A stretch of 64,000 nt of DNA, from the NCBI GenBank assembly GCA_963575745.1, contig CAUYUJ010014549.1, positions 737,001 through 801,000 of the forward strand, given 5' to 3'. Shown one piece after another: positions 3,626 to 59,924 of this stretch. The DNA comes from Prorocentrum cordatum (Eukaryota; Sar; Dinophyceae; Prorocentrales; Prorocentraceae). The notes under the pieces are model-generated. The model was given only the letters and a program-made list of their open reading frames with translations, did no database searches and was not told the origin of the DNA. The position numbers and the translations under genes are program-made. How positions within the stretch are numbered: the stretch's first letter is position 1; each line of letters starts with the position of its first letter.

Positions 3626-4106
3626 TCTCGCTCGAAGACCCCCATTAGTCGTGTACTGCCCGGGCCACCCCACGGAACGCGGGAAGCGCCCCTTTGACAG
3701 CCTATCGCCCTATGGTTTGTCGAGGATCGAAGCTTCTGGACGTGCCTGCCCCTTCTCAGAGATCCGAGGAGATGATTTGGTCAATCCTGCGGTTGTTCCT
3801 GCATGCCGGCCTCCAGGGCCCGTTCTCCGGCCGGGAGGCCATCAAACAGGGACTCGGGACGGAACACCACCCCCAGGCGAGGGGTGGGGACCTCTGGGGC
3901 CGCGGGCTGAAGCAACCACATCGGTGGACGGCTGCGCTGCCAGAACTCCCAGAGGCCTCCAGGGACCTCCGGAGACTTCCTGGGCACCTCTTGCATGCAT
4001 CCTCCCAGAGACTGGTGCCGCCCCGCAGGCGTTCCACTGCTGCAGAAGGAGGCGGGGCCCCCTCTCTCTCCGATCAGGGGTGGCTGACGTATCCATAACA
4101 GCCCAG

Positions 4107-4272
4107 GCCTCCCAGATGGGGTCGGAGTAGATGGGGTCGGAGGATCGCGCCGCATCGCCGATGCATCGCCGATGTGGCTCGATGTGCAGCCCGAGCCTCA
4201 CGTCGACGATGCATCGCCGACTCATCGCCGATGTATCGGCGGTGCGGCGCGATCCCCCGACCCCATCTACAG
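4107..4272 (+). mobile_element. Foldback family B, copy 1 (introner-like)
   Basis: Begins CAG|GCCTCCCAGATGGGG and carries complementary arms: AGATGGGGTCGGAGGATCGC on the left, GCGATCCCCCGACCCCATCT on the right. The interior is built from GCATCGCCGAT units. The right end reads CTACAG, so a GC-AG intron is possible. Confidence 0.75.
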
Positions 4273-10351: not shown

Positions 10352-10463
10352 CCGAGCACCGGCGCGGACCGATGTCGCCGCAGCCTCGCAGGAGCGCTCC
10401 TGCGTCGGCCCCCCGTTGGCGGAGATGCGACACGACGAGCTGATCAGGCCGCGGGCCTGGGAG
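10352..10463 (+). CDS. Exon 5' of introner F
   Basis: An acceptor CGCCACGCAG| opens a frame TDVAAASQERSCVGPPLAEM RHDELIRPRAWE that stops exactly at GGGAG|GTGCGG. The donor is the AG|GT inside the 27-bp duplication that flanks element F. Splicing to 10735 gives ...RAWE|VRLPRVVYDIRHD with no frame change. No known domain; the predicted peptide is charged and soluble. Confidence 0.65.
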
Positions 10464-10750
10464 GTGCGGTTACCCAGGGCTTCGTGGGCCCTGGAAACGA
10501 CAGGGCCGTTTTTTTACCGGTTCCGTTTCGCCGTTTTCTTGCCGGTTCCGACGCCGTTTTTCTACCGGTTCCGTCGCCGTTTTTTGACCGGTTCTGGCTC
10601 CGGCTCCAATCCTGGAGCCGCTTTTTTGCCGTTTCTGGTCGCCGTTTCTTTGCCCTTTCCATTTTCAAGGGACATGTTCTCGGAAACGGTGAAAAAACGG
10701 CCGCCGTTTCCGGGGCCCACTAAGGGCCTGGGAGGTGCGGTTACCCAGGG
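10453..10750 (+). mobile_element. Introner element F, copy 1, with 27-bp target duplication
   Basis: Element body 10480-10723. The 27-bp direct repeats at 10453-10479 and 10724-10750 are identical (GGGCCTGGGAGGTGC plus GGTTACCCAGGG). Terminal inverted repeats are CTTCGTGGGCCCTGGAAACG and CGTTTCCGGGGCCCACTAAG. The interior holds repeated ACCGGTTCCG and GCCGTTTTTT blocks. Because the duplication contains AG|GT, the left copy supplies a GT donor and the right copy an AG acceptor, giving an intron at 10464-10734 (271 bp). The second copy is at 27655. Confidence 0.85.
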
Positions 10751-10833
10751 TGGTTTATGATATTCGGCACGATCCAAGTGGGAACGGAAGCAATGGACAC
10801 GAAGACCGAGAGGTGTTCTGCAGAAAGCACAAG
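10735..10833 (+). CDS. Exon 3' of introner F
   Basis: Exactly 33 codons: VRLPRVVYDIRHDPSGNGSN then GHEDREVFCRKHK, bounded by the F acceptor (GGGAG|GTG) and a donor CACAAG|GTAGTT that opens family K copy 1. Both junctions are phase 0. Rich in Gly, Asn, His and charged residues. No family recognised. Confidence 0.65.
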
Positions 10834-10988
10834 GTAGTTGCCCATACCTCTACCTTTTCCTCGTTTTCCCTTCTTGGGGCCTCCTCGGAGGCTCTCTTCG
10901 CCACCGCTGGATTCGCCTCAAAATTCTGGTCAGAACGCACCCCAGGAGAGGTCGTGGGAGTGTCGGCTCATGGTAATCGGTACGATCG
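10834..10988 (+). mobile_element. Foldback family K, copy 1 (introner-like)
   Basis: Starts at the GTAGTT donor with GTAGTTGCCCATACC and ends near GGTAATCGGTAC, which is complementary. The core GCTGGATTCGCCTC / TTCTGGTCAGA / ACCCCAGGAGAGGTC is the family hallmark. The following segment to 11036 reads YDRNGNGKHGSKDRQQ in frame and may be a further exon ending at TAG|GCCTCC of family B. Confidence 0.7.
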
Positions 10989-11036
10989 GAATGGGAACGG
11001 GAAGCATGGGTCCAAAGACCGACAGCAGCTCCCTAG

Positions 11037-11264
11037 GCCTCCTAGGCGGGGTCCGACCAGATGGGGTCGGCGGATCGCGCCGCATCGCCGATGCATCGGC
11101 GATGCGGCTCGATGCGGAGTCCGATTTGCTCGGCACCGATGTCGCCGTTACGCTGCCAACGTCGCCGATACATCGCCGGTGCATCGCCGATGCATCGCCG
11201 ATGCATCGCCGATGCATCGCCGATGCAGCGCGATCCTCACCCCGCCTAGTCGGACCCCGTCTAG
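11037..11264 (+). mobile_element. Foldback family B, copy 2
   Basis: Begins CCTAG|GCCTCCTAGGCGGGG. GATCGCGCCGCATCGCCGAT on the left is mirrored by CGATGCAGCGCGATC on the right. The centre has four tandem GCATCGCCGAT units. Confidence 0.8.
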
Positions 11265-11267
11265 GAT

Positions 11268-20693: not shown

Positions 20694-20698
20694 TCCCT

Positions 20699-20928
20699 TC
20701 AGAGCCCCGAATCATCAGGGCTAACTCGGGTCAGGGCTAACTCGGGTTGGCTTTTCGGGATTCCGAACCCGAGTTACCCCGGGCCCGAGTTACCCCAGAT
20801 AACTCGGGCGTCCAGAGCCCCAAATCATCAGGGGTAACTCGGGTCAGGGCTAACTCGGGTTCGTTCTTCGGGAATCCAAGCCCGCGTTACCCCAGACCCG
20901 AGTTACCCCGGATAACTCGGGCGCCCAA
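20699..20928 (-). mobile_element. Hairpin element H, tandem dimer (likely intron)
   Basis: Two head-to-tail units of about 115 bp, each made of GGTAACTCGGGT and its complement ACCCGAGTTACC. The outer ends TCAGAGCCCC and GGGCGCCCAA are identical to those of the single copy at 59617-59733. Flanked by the 5-bp duplication TCCCT (20694-20698 and 20929-20933). Removing it with one duplication keeps the minus-strand reading frame (GQLRETMHHV). Confidence 0.8.
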
Positions 20929-20933
20929 TCCCT

Positions 20934-21250
20934 CAGCTGCCCCAGGTCCGTCACTTGCTGGCGGTGCGTGATGATTGCGTTCTTGCTGGCCCCTTCGAGG
21001 CTCTCGATGGCGGCTCCCTCATGGGTGATAGCTGCCCAGATGTCCACAGCTGGCGGGTGTTTGGACCGCATTTCTCTAGCGCCGTCGGCGAGGATTGTAC
21101 GGCCTTCCGCATCAGTGATCACGTTGTCGCGCTGGAGCATAATTGTCTTGAACAGGGTGGCTTGGACGGCGCGTGTCTCCTCGTCGCTTTTCAAACCGAG
21201 ATTTGCAGCCAGCGGCAGGAGCCCGGTGATGTTCTCCGAATTCGACTTGC
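20934..21250 (-). CDS. Middle exon of the 20.5-21.9 kb minus-strand gene
   Basis: Reads ENITGLLPLAANLGLKSDEE TRAVQATLFKTIMLQRDNVI, then TDAEGRTILADGAREMRSKH PPAVDIWAAITHEGAAIESL EGASKNAIITHRQQVTDLGQ and LR at the H element. Diverse, helical and clearly protein-like. No family recognised. Same frame as the exon at 21370-21887, but a TGA at 21256-21258 separates them, so an intron or indel lies between 21250 and 21370. Confidence 0.65.
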
Positions 21251-21369
21251 CCCCCCCTTGTCACTGCGCGACGCTTGGCGCCCACAACAGGGGCATCCCG
21301 CGCCAGCGGCACCAGAGTTGCCAAGCGCAGCCGCAGCAGCGGCTGCGGCGCGCGCAGCGGGTCGTCGCC

Positions 21370-21887
21370 GTCGCCGCGGCGGCTCCCTCGGCGCGCCGAG
21401 CGGCAGTGGCGGCTTTCTCTTGCCTTGGCCCGGGCCTGCTGGCGTCGGCCTGCGCGAGCACCTGGTCCAGCAGGCCCTGCTCCACGGCGAAGTTGCCCAG
21501 CAGCTGGCCCAAGACCGCCGCCGTGATCTGCGCGCCGCCCGCGAGGCCGCCCAGCCAAACGTCAGGCTGGCTAGGCGGCAAAGGCACGCGCTCCATGCTC
21601 GCCGCCCGCTCGCTCTTGAGCCGCACGGTGCTGGCCCCCTCCTCCGGGATGCTGGCGCGCGCCCCCTCAGCCTTGGCGGCCAGTTCCTGCCGCTGGAGCT
21701 CCAGCGCCGCGAGCTCCTCGCGGCCCTTTCCCAGCTGTTTCTTCTGTTTCTTGACGCCGTCTTTCTGGCCCTGCGCGCCTGGCTGTTGCTGTCCCCCCCT
21801 GGTGCTCGTCGTCGAACTCTTCGGCGTATGAACGTCCCTTGTGCCTGTCGGCCGTCCCCCCCCTCTCGTTGCCCGCCGGCCAATTCG
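21370..21887 (-). CDS. Large exon, coiled-coil protein of unknown function
   Basis: Starts after an acceptor ACTAACTAG| on the minus strand, with a branch-like CTAAC. Reads NWPAGNERGGTADRHKGRSY AEEFDDEHQ, a Gln/Gly linker, then a heptad-like helix (KKQKKQLGKGREELAALELQ RQELAAKAEGA). It goes on through MERVPLPPSQPDVWLGGLAG GAQITAAVLGQLLGNFAVEQ GLLDQVLAQ. G/C third positions throughout. The 3' boundary is unclear: CCAAG|GCAAGA (GC donor) is attractive but gives the wrong phase with simple acceptors. Confidence 0.65.
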
Positions 21888-27654: not shown

Positions 27655-27918
27655 GGCCCAAGGCTTAGTGGGCCCTGGAAACGACCGGGCAGTTTTTTTA
27701 CCGGTTCCGTGTTACCGTTTTTGTCGCCGGTTCCGTTTTGCCGTTGTTTTACCGGTTCCGTAGCCGTTTTTTGACCGGTTCCGGCTCCAGTTCCGATCTT
27801 GGAGCCGTTTTTTTGCCGTTTCCGGTCGCCGTTTTTTTTGCCGTTTCCATTTTCAATGAACATTTTTTTTGGAAACGGTGAAAAAACGGCCCTGCCGTTT
27901 CCGGGGCCCACAAAGGCC
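27655..27918 (+). mobile_element. Introner element F, copy 2
   Basis: Termini CTTAGTGGGCCCTGGAAACG and CCGTTTCCGGGGCCCAC match copy 1, with the same ACCGGTTCCG interior. Flanked by the short duplication GGCCCAAG (about 27652 and 27915). No coding frame is visible on either side here. Confidence 0.8.
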
Positions 27919-28641
27919 CAAGACAATCCGGGACGGCCTAAAACCCAAGACAGCCGGGGACAGCCTGACCTTCAGGACACCTCCGGGATCCTCACGGCAC
28001 CCCCGGCATCCTCACGGCACCCCCGGCATCCGAAGGAACCTTTAGGAAGCCCGCTGGAATGTTGGATCCCGGCCGGCACTTGCAGGATTTGTTTGAAATT
28101 GCCACGGGGTTTTGCCAAATTGTTTGAGCTTCTCTGGAGGAACCGCCCAGAACTTGCCAGGTTTTCAGAAACCAGCAGGAATTTGCCGAAACCCGCAGCA
28201 TCCCGGACGATTTCTCAGGAGTCCTTCAGGTATCCTCGCAGGAACGTTTTTGAGAATTTGCCAGGAGTCTGAAGGAAACGCAAACATCAGATACACCAGG
28301 AATAGTTAAGTGCTTAAGCCGACCATCCTTCAAGAGTTTCCATGATCCCACAAGAGTCTTCAGGAATGCTCAGGACTGCAAAAGAAAAATCACCCCCCCC
28401 GGCGCGTTATCGATTCCGTGCGTGTCGCTCTGAGTGCCGTGCTCAAACGGAGGTCCGATAAAACATGCAATTGCTCTCGAATTGCGACAGGCAGTGATGG
28501 GTGATCTTGAGATTGACACGTTCACGCTCGCAGCGCAAACGTGCCATCCGCAGCCTGCTTTCCCTCCTGGTCCTCTTCTTCCGTGTTCTCTTCGCCCTTT
28601 CTCGTCCTCGGTGTTTTCCGCAATCATTGGGGCCGTCGATA

Positions 28642-32650: not shown

Positions 32651-32693
32651 GGTGGATTGAATACGTATCAGTGCCTCCTGTTCCTGGATCTAG

Positions 32694-32882
32694 GCCTCCC
32701 AAACTGGGTCCGAGTGAGATCGGGTCGGAGGATCGAGCCGCGTCGGCGGTGCACCGGCGATGCGGCTCGATGTGGAGCCCGCCGACGTCGCCGATGCGTT
32801 GCTGACGTCGCCGATACATGAGCGATGCGGCGCGGTCTCCCGACCCCATCTACTCGTGCCCAGTCTAGGAGGCCTCTGCTAG
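32694..32882 (+). mobile_element. Foldback family B, copy 3
   Basis: GATCTAG|GCCTCCCAAACTGG start, GGGTCGGAGGATCGAGCCGC arm and GCGGCGCGGTCTCCCGACCC arm, end CTAGGAGGCCTCTGCTAG. Confidence 0.8.
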
Positions 32883-52548: not shown

Positions 52549-52651
52549 CGAAACGCCAGGGAGTGCCGCCGTGGTCTCGACCTGGCCCTCCTCGGAGAGG
52601 TGGGCGAGCTGCTCGACCAGCAGCTGCCGCGCCCGGACTGGAGGAGTCTAG
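52549..52651 (+). CDS. Exon ending exactly at a family B element
   Basis: Acceptor CCCCAGCAG|CGA. Reads RNARECRRGLDLALLGEVGE LLDQQLPRPDWRSL and stops at GAGTCTAG|GCCTCG, the start of family B copy 4, giving a GC donor in phase 1. Short amphipathic helix rich in Leu and Glu. Same strand as the exons on both sides. Confidence 0.55.
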
Positions 52652-52814
52652 GCCTCGCCAATCGGGTCCGAGCAGATGGGGTCGGAGTAGATCGCGCCGC
52701 ATCGCAAATGCATCGACGACGCGGCCCGATGTGACGCCGATGGCGCAGATGCATCGCCGACGCCGCCGGTGCGTGCAGATGCATCGGCGATGCGGCGCGA
52801 TCCTCCGACCCCAG
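52652..52814 (+). mobile_element. Foldback family B, copy 4 (GC-AG intron candidate)
   Basis: Starts GCCTCGCCAATCGGG; arms GATCGCGCCGCATCGC and GCGATGCGGCGCGATC; ends CGACCCCAG|GTGTGG. Confidence 0.8.
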
Positions 52815-53834: not shown

Positions 53835-53985
53835 GTCAGAGGAGGAAAAGGTACCCATACGCGGCCACCCTTCCCTCGGTCCCCCCTGTTTGGGCCGCCG
53901 GGGAGGCTCTCGTCGCCACCGCTGGATTCGCCATGGAGTTCTGGTCAGAAGGCACCCCAGGAGAGGACCGGGGAGCAGCGGTATC
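53835..53985 (+). mobile_element. Foldback family K, copy
   Basis: AGGAAAAGGTACCCATACG start, CACCGCTGGATTCGCCATGG core, GCAGCGGTATCGGTAC end. Confidence 0.8.
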
Positions 53986-58887: not shown

Positions 58888-58989
58888 CCGCGTTCCTTAC
58901 GTGTTTCACAGCTTGCCTCAGGCTTCCCTTATGTTTTCGACAGGAAATCGAAGGTTAACGTATGGAAAAAAAGGGCCTCGTTCCTCCTG
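58888..58989 (+). CDS. Possible exon ending at family B copy 5
   Basis: The frame VSQLASGFPYVFDRKSKVNV WKKRASFLL ends in phase 0 at CTCCTG|GCCTCC. An alternative frame (HSLPQASLMFSTGNRRLTYG) is also open. Joined through the GC-AG element it would continue into the exon at 59235. Confidence 0.35.
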
Positions 58990-59234
58990 GCCTCCTAGAT
59001 GGGGTCGGAGTAGATGGGGTCGGAGGATCTCGCCGCATCGCCGATGCATCGGCGATGCATCGGCGATGCATCGGCGATGCGGCTCCATTCGGGGCCCGAT
59101 CTTCTCCACGCCGACGTCGCCGATGCACCGCCGACGTCGCCAGTGCATCGCCGATGCATCAGCGATTCGGCGAGATCCTCCGACCACATCTACTCGGACC
59201 CCATCTAGGAGGCTCCTTATTTAGGGTTCCTCAG
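58990..59234 (+). mobile_element. Foldback family B, copy 5 (most regular)
   Basis: GCCTCCTAGATGGGGTCGGA ... TCGGACCCCATCTAGGAGGC form the outer arms and GGTCGGAGGATCTCGCCGC / GCGAGATCCTCCGACC the inner ones. Three tandem GATGCATCGGC units. An AG acceptor follows at TTCCTCAG|GTC. Confidence 0.85.
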
Positions 59235-59385: not shown

Positions 59386-59411
59386 GTAAGTCGGAGGCCA
59401 CATGCGAACCC

Positions 59412-59580
59412 TACACCTTAGGCGATGCTTAAGAAAACTTAAATTTTCGGCCAGAGTCTCGATTCTTCTTAACGTTTCAATGTAAATCCTAAGATCTGAA
59501 TAGAATCTTTGGGTTTTCATTCAAGTTCTGAGACCATGAATTTCTGAACCCATGATTTCTTAAGCATTTCGCAGGGTGTA
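59412..59580. mobile_element. MITE family A, copy 3, inserted in L
   Basis: L copy 1 reads GAACCCTACCCTAACC; here it reads GAACCC-TA-[element]-TA-CCCCAACC. This fixes the element boundaries and shows duplication of TA. Confidence 0.9.
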
Positions 59581-59616
59581 CCCCAACCCCCCACGATCTC
59601 TGAGGGGGAGGGTGGG

Positions 59617-59733
59617 TCAGAGCCCCGAATCATCAGGGGTAACTCGGGTCAGGGCTAACTCGGGTTCCTTTTTCGGGGACCCAAACCCGAGTTACCCCGG
59701 ACCCGAGTTACCCCGGATAGCTCGGGCGCCCAA
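59617..59733. mobile_element. Hairpin element H, single unit, with 25-bp target duplication
   Basis: TCAGAGCCCC to GGGCGCCCAA, 117 bp. The 25-bp segment at 59592-59616 (CACGATCTCTGAGGG plus GGAGGGTGGG) is repeated exactly at 59734-59758. Confidence 0.9.
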
Positions 59734-59924
59734 CACGATCTCTGAGGGGGAGGGTGGGGTTCACTTCGCTCGGGAGCTCCTGGACGAAGTGAACCCCACC
59801 CTCCTCGGAAAAATCGTGGGGGGTAGTAGGGGTAGGGTTCGCATATGTGGCCCCCATATCAGGGCGTCTGGCGCCCGCGAGGTCCGCCGGCATGCCCGTG
59901 GGATTAGGGGAGCAAAGCAGTGGC

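Follow-up and report, generated by a model that had tools for sequence, protein, structure and literature searches.

MITEs are short, non-coding elements with inverted ends that are present in many copies, and in most of these copies they are flanked by a target duplication of fixed length. The introners likewise combine inverted ends with a duplication and with a sequence potential for exact removal, and the previously known introner families are cited with duplications of 3-9 bp (PMC9860276, in the part available). In the Symbiodinium layout described in that same part, the duplication provides the donor and the terminal AG|G of the element the acceptor (PMC9860276). The introner elements of Amoebophrya pair hairpin-forming inverted repeats with direct repeats of 3-5 nt, and the excerpted account presents their introns as RNA-supported (PMC7789003).

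Element F of Prorocentrum cordatum, a non-autonomous, non-coding inverted-repeat element of about 245 bp, has features in common with all of these. It agrees with the MITEs in every trait named above and differs from them in that 5 of 103 F copies, together with 2 of the 32 places of an unrelated element, C, have 18-65 bp in place of the 8 or 5 bp that are usual for the two families. The Symbiodinium layout is shared by 39 of 77 ordinary F copies; in contrast to the introners cited, however, one copy, F1, has a duplication far beyond 3-9 bp, F sites lack codon signal above control, and F1 is known from sequence alone. Hairpin-forming inverted repeats with direct repeats are common to F and the Amoebophrya elements, whose shorter repeats and RNA support set them apart from an F1 read from the DNA. 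We consider it likely that F1 is a MITE insertion in repeat-rich DNA without coding signal, its ends joined about 26 bp apart, and that it is no spliceosomal intron. The novel part of the case is the class of long duplications to which F1 belongs.

Element F and its ordinary target duplication

The analysis started from a window, the whole 64,000-nt stretch of DNA under study, with a G+C content of 60.7%, in an assembly of 4.13 Gb and 21,875 contigs; the published genome of the species is given as 4.15 Gb with 59.7% G+C in the part of the paper available (PMC10666404). Genome searches for F with three queries gave 3800, 2551, and 3352 first-look candidates, 40 of which were scored in each. The sample was assembled from 39 fetched copies, a further 38 and 24, both copies in the window, and additional ones within the fetched loci, and removal of partial and duplicate copies left 103 full-length, non-redundant copies, which are those nearest to the three queries and under-represent older ones.

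The family is uniform at its termini, with 82 of the 103 copies starting in CTTAG and 95 ending in AAG; CTTAGTGGGCCC is an end sequence of F. An 8-bp target duplication with at least 7 of 8 bases matching flanks 77 of the 103 and is exact in 53, and the target has a consensus of approximately G[TC]C[CT]NGG[GC]. We take this 8-bp duplication and its GTCC.GG target to resemble those of the hAT or P superfamily. F thus has what marks a MITE, or TIR DNA transposon, namely terminal inverted repeats, high copy number with no coding capacity in its 245 bp, and, as a family, a duplication of fixed length (77/103), from which F1 itself departs. The other 26 copies comprise five with long duplications, F1 included, 20 with no duplication at the 8-bp position (at least one of them merely shifted by one base), and one further copy, L124. 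The 20 copies without a duplication nevertheless resemble the target at both half-sites (p=4e-4 and 3e-6).

Several candidate features were set aside. The 109-bp duplication that the script flagged at L124 is an ordinary 8-bp insertion within a tandem repeat, and a 9-bp duplication for the family was rejected since the additional G is part of the element. A supposed relative on viral contigs (L001) proved on reading to be a single 18-base match with no surrounding element. Separately, at locus L021 (G000:C3451:6511-9767) a sense-orientation F copy lies upstream of an open frame that by eye resembles a membrane exchanger exon, and the copy appears to lie inside a larger intron.

The long duplication at F1 and its counterparts

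F1 is a 245-bp, MITE-like element at 10480..10724 on the forward strand, with inverted ends CTTCGTGGGCCC and GGGCCCACTAAG and an interior of T-rich repeats (GCCGTTTTTT.ACCGGTTCC); the predicted RNA fold of 10453-10750 has z = -5.7. A sequence-only reading of the window had proposed that a transposon-like inverted-repeat element was inserted here with duplication of its target between identical 27-bp direct repeats, and the inverted ends do lie between identical repeats. The 27-mer GGGCCTGGGAGGTGCGGTTACCCAGGG occurs at 10453-10479 and 10724-10750 and has no further exact match in the window, whichever strand is read. While the identity of the repeats held, their length did not. Comparison with other F copies makes the G at 10724 the terminal base of the element (CTTNGTGGGCCC...GGGCCCACWAAG). 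The duplication proper then measures 26 bp, with a left copy at 10454..10479 and a right copy at 10725..10750, identical to each other, and reaches 27 bp from 10453 only with a chance G. The AG|GT that each repeat was said to contain is present in both copies as GAG|GTGCGG, and excision of 10464-10734 (271 nt, GAG|GTGCGG ... GGGAG|G) leaves exactly one repeat copy, as had been read. The second copy in the window, for which the same termini and an 8-bp duplication had been noted, was confirmed as F2, at 27664..27915 on the forward strand, with the same ends as F1, 86% identity to it, and duplications GCCCAAGG (27656..27663) and GCCCAAGA (27916..27923) that match in 7 of 8 bases. Since 77 of 103 F copies carry 8 bp, the F2 duplication is the norm and the long one at F1 the exception. 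The suggestion that the F1 insertion is recent found no support, because F1 is 5.7% diverged from the F majority sequence and 72 of 80 copies are nearer to that majority, which makes F1 older than most, even though its two 26-mers are identical. A search with the joined flanks for an empty allele found none, returning the two halves of the F1 site itself and ten short repeat matches.

A long duplication abutting both ends arose in 0 of 2000 mismatched pairs of left and right flanks, and a duplication of the F1 type is therefore not due to chance. The long duplications in F measure 18 bp (L060), 26 bp (F1), 28 bp with two mismatches (L070), 38 bp with one mismatch (L028), and about 65 bp (L074); the last contains an indel, its element is truncated by 8 nt at the left end, and it was recognized by eye, the other four by script. 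The share of F copies concerned is 5/103, or 4/102 without F1, which prompted the search.

Element C belongs to a family unrelated to F whose usual duplication is 5 bp. The long-duplication insertion of C in the window, at 59617..59733 on the forward strand, lies between exact 25-bp copies at 59592..59616 and 59734..59758, and a second C insertion (L086) has an imperfect duplication of 53 bp. According to counts made by hand, C is found at 32 places, of which 27 have a short repeat of 5-8 bp that abuts the ends or lies no more than 2 nt from them, two a long one (25 and 53 bp), and three no or an unclear duplication; the long share is accordingly 2/32, or 1/31 without the prompting case. The full set comprises seven cases, two of which were found first and prompted the work. 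In six of them (F1, L028, L060, L070, C3, and L086) the bases adjoining the two ends differ, which sets these six apart from ordinary insertions into a tandem repeat. A narrow search of the literature, covering its sources in part, returned no description of MITEs of which a minority of copies has a long duplication.

Some further features of C and its surroundings were seen in passing. C is frequently a head-to-tail dimer, as at L036 and at 20699..20928 on the forward strand, where the duplication is the ordinary 5-bp TCCCT (20694-20698 and 20929-20933), and many of the 32 places span about 230 bp. Beside that dimer, 20934-21776 on the reverse strand holds two open stretches of protein-like composition, whose one Pfam match is sub-threshold (Peptidase_M17, E=0.0064). 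At L094 an F-like element has a C dimer lodged in its right inverted end, between the flanks ccagggcccacta and cactaag. The segment at about 59390-59855 is nested, a D-type element being broken by C and by an A element that, by reading, has the ends TACACC...GGTGTA and an apparent TA duplication. A partly palindromic family with GCATCGCCGATGC-like internal repeats occupies 4102-4270, 11033-11266, 32690-32875, 52647-52813, and 58986-59213.

Proposed joining of the ends at distant half-sites

Under our preferred reading, a transposase would attach the two F1 ends to opposite strands of the target with a stagger of about 26 bp in place of 8; repair of the gap would then copy the stretch between the joins and so generate the long duplication. 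The log-odds scores of the 13 half-sites at long insertions, with the truncated left end of L074 left out, add up to 25.8, where the null has a mean of -16.7 (sd 7.3; p<=1e-4). For the nine that are left when F1 and C3 are omitted, the sum is 15.2, compared with -12.0 (sd 6.2) under the null (p<=1e-4); both p values are the floor of 10,000 draws. At single insertions, the left half-site of L028 fails to fit (-1.56), and that of L086 fits barely (0.19).

The main rival is capture of an excised F copy by end joining at a staggered double-strand break with long overhangs, followed by fill-in and involving no strand transfer by transposase. Breaks with 3' overhangs are described as giving rise, through fill-in, to small tandem duplications (PMC8355091), which would agree with ours in arising by fill-in synthesis and differ in that the account, in the part available, describes no inserted transposon. 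The variable duplication lengths, from 18 to 65 bp, speak for such capture, as do the truncated end of L074 and the altered termini seen in four of the five F copies with long duplications, compared with 18 of 59 canonical copies (p=0.044) and 27 of 75 others (p=0.071). Yet all but one of these five copies keep both ends to the last few bases, and the long cases, taken together, retain the half-site preference of the target. We regard this route as rather unlikely.

If two F copies had inserted at adjacent targets on different alleles or sisters, a crossover between them would give the order XMY[F]XMY; this seems to us distinctly improbable. Recombinants of this kind would be expected to keep a half-site preference without a duplication, as the 20 duplication-less copies do, and the two 8-mers adjoining F1 both look like full targets (GGCCTGGG, p=0.0019; ACCCAGGG, p=0.0076), whereas those adjoining L028 are not target-like. 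The scheme also calls for two separate insertions only tens of bases from each other, and their recurrence in a few per cent of two unrelated families (5/103 and 2/32) is unlikely.

Joining of transposon ends at separated half-sites stays our preferred account. The excess over the canonical length is 10, 18, 20, 30, and 57 bp in F and 20 and 48 bp in C. A helical periodicity of about 10 bp in these lengths, noticed after the fact in seven cases, is only a hint.

Coding tests of the F1 flanks and wider meaning

The sequence-only reading had gone further and taken F1 for an introner, through which a gene would recently have gained an intron, its donor and acceptor AG|GT being supplied by the two copies of the duplication and coding-like segments lying on either side. 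Removal does restore the reading frame exactly and in phase 0, and the joined frame runs for 299 aa with no stop, which favours this view; joined frames at 44 F sites, however, have a median of 221.5 aa against 255 aa at 900 control positions (p=0.81), and that of F1 ranks 12th of 44 by length (305 aa in this comparison, in which 8 bp were taken out of each site). With 67 of 79 (85%), F sites had joined flanks free of stops slightly more often than controls did (76% of 1260 draws); codon-position composition at these 79 sites, 67 of them open, was not above control (p=0.996). The codon contrast of F1 itself, 0.16, ties for third among F sites, a point in favour, yet among controls it reaches only the 76th percentile. 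A Pfam scan of the two proposed exons, each taken separately, gave nothing at E<=1; a separate scan of 10 ORFs of the window, the F1 joined frame not among them, gave three sub-threshold matches.

The proposed right exon, moreover, contains dispersed repeats. One segment, at 10764..10818, recurs at four other genomic places with 77-87% identity and is 77% like 10970-11025; a second repeat, R, at 10841..10961, has related copies at 53867, 44812, 18582, and 51141, five matches in the fetched loci, and a start that is found at six other genomic places. Dispersed repeats may lie in multi-copy genes.

The splice motifs themselves are common in this DNA. According to the part of the genome paper available, P. 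cordatum uses GT, GC, and GA donors with mostly AG|G acceptors, and its introns are enriched in introner elements (PMC10666404); introners with both splice sites derived from the site of insertion are described in the part of the source available (PMC9860276). Both points suit an introner at F1. Against this, among random 27-mers of the window 7% contain AGGT and 27% AGG[TCA] on one strand (50% contain AGG[TCA] when either strand counts), and 39 of 77 ordinary F copies are equally removable exactly, by way of G[TCA] as the first two bases of the duplication and an AG at the end of the element with a G after it; a separate exact-excision script found at least 47 such among 80 copies, its rows for the long duplications coming out empty. 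Because the usual duplication is 8 bp, splice sites within the 27-bp repeat reflect one aberrant insertion and not a mechanism of the family. Single F copies could be introns, the exact-removal layout of the family being a potential of the sequence, and F1 has that potential by reading. Its flanks, by these indirect tests, do not behave as coding exons: joined frames at F sites are no longer than at control positions, codon-position composition there is not above control, neither exon has a Pfam match, and the right flank carries dispersed repeats. With the divergence of F1 from the majority sequence added, we judge both the coding character of the flanks and the intron itself unsupported, and an introner at F1 very improbable.

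L1-like retrotransposition of an F transcript ('retro-DNA'), for which longer duplications are reported, is scarcely credible, because in the part of the source available the retro-DNAs have no inverted ends and in some cases a poly-A tail (PMC11195612), whereas the long-duplication F copies have both inverted ends abutting the duplication, no A tail beside it, and the half-sites of a DNA transposon.

An insertion of F1 as a MITE with widely separated joins carries a warning, namely that long direct repeats flanking an inverted-repeat element are, on their own, no evidence of intron gain. It is conceivable, though we hold it doubtful, that the ends of DNA transposons in this dinoflagellate can join half-sites tens of bases apart in a semi-independent manner, so that 18-65 bp are duplicated in one event and exonic cases could supply both splice sites. 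If this is true, a long-duplication insertion in an exon would add a second path to new introns, next to the usual introner with its short duplication. The length of the target duplication is usually treated as a fixed signature of the transposase; long duplications in a few per cent of the copies of two unrelated families within one genome would instead point to some property of integration or gap repair in dinoflagellate chromatin.
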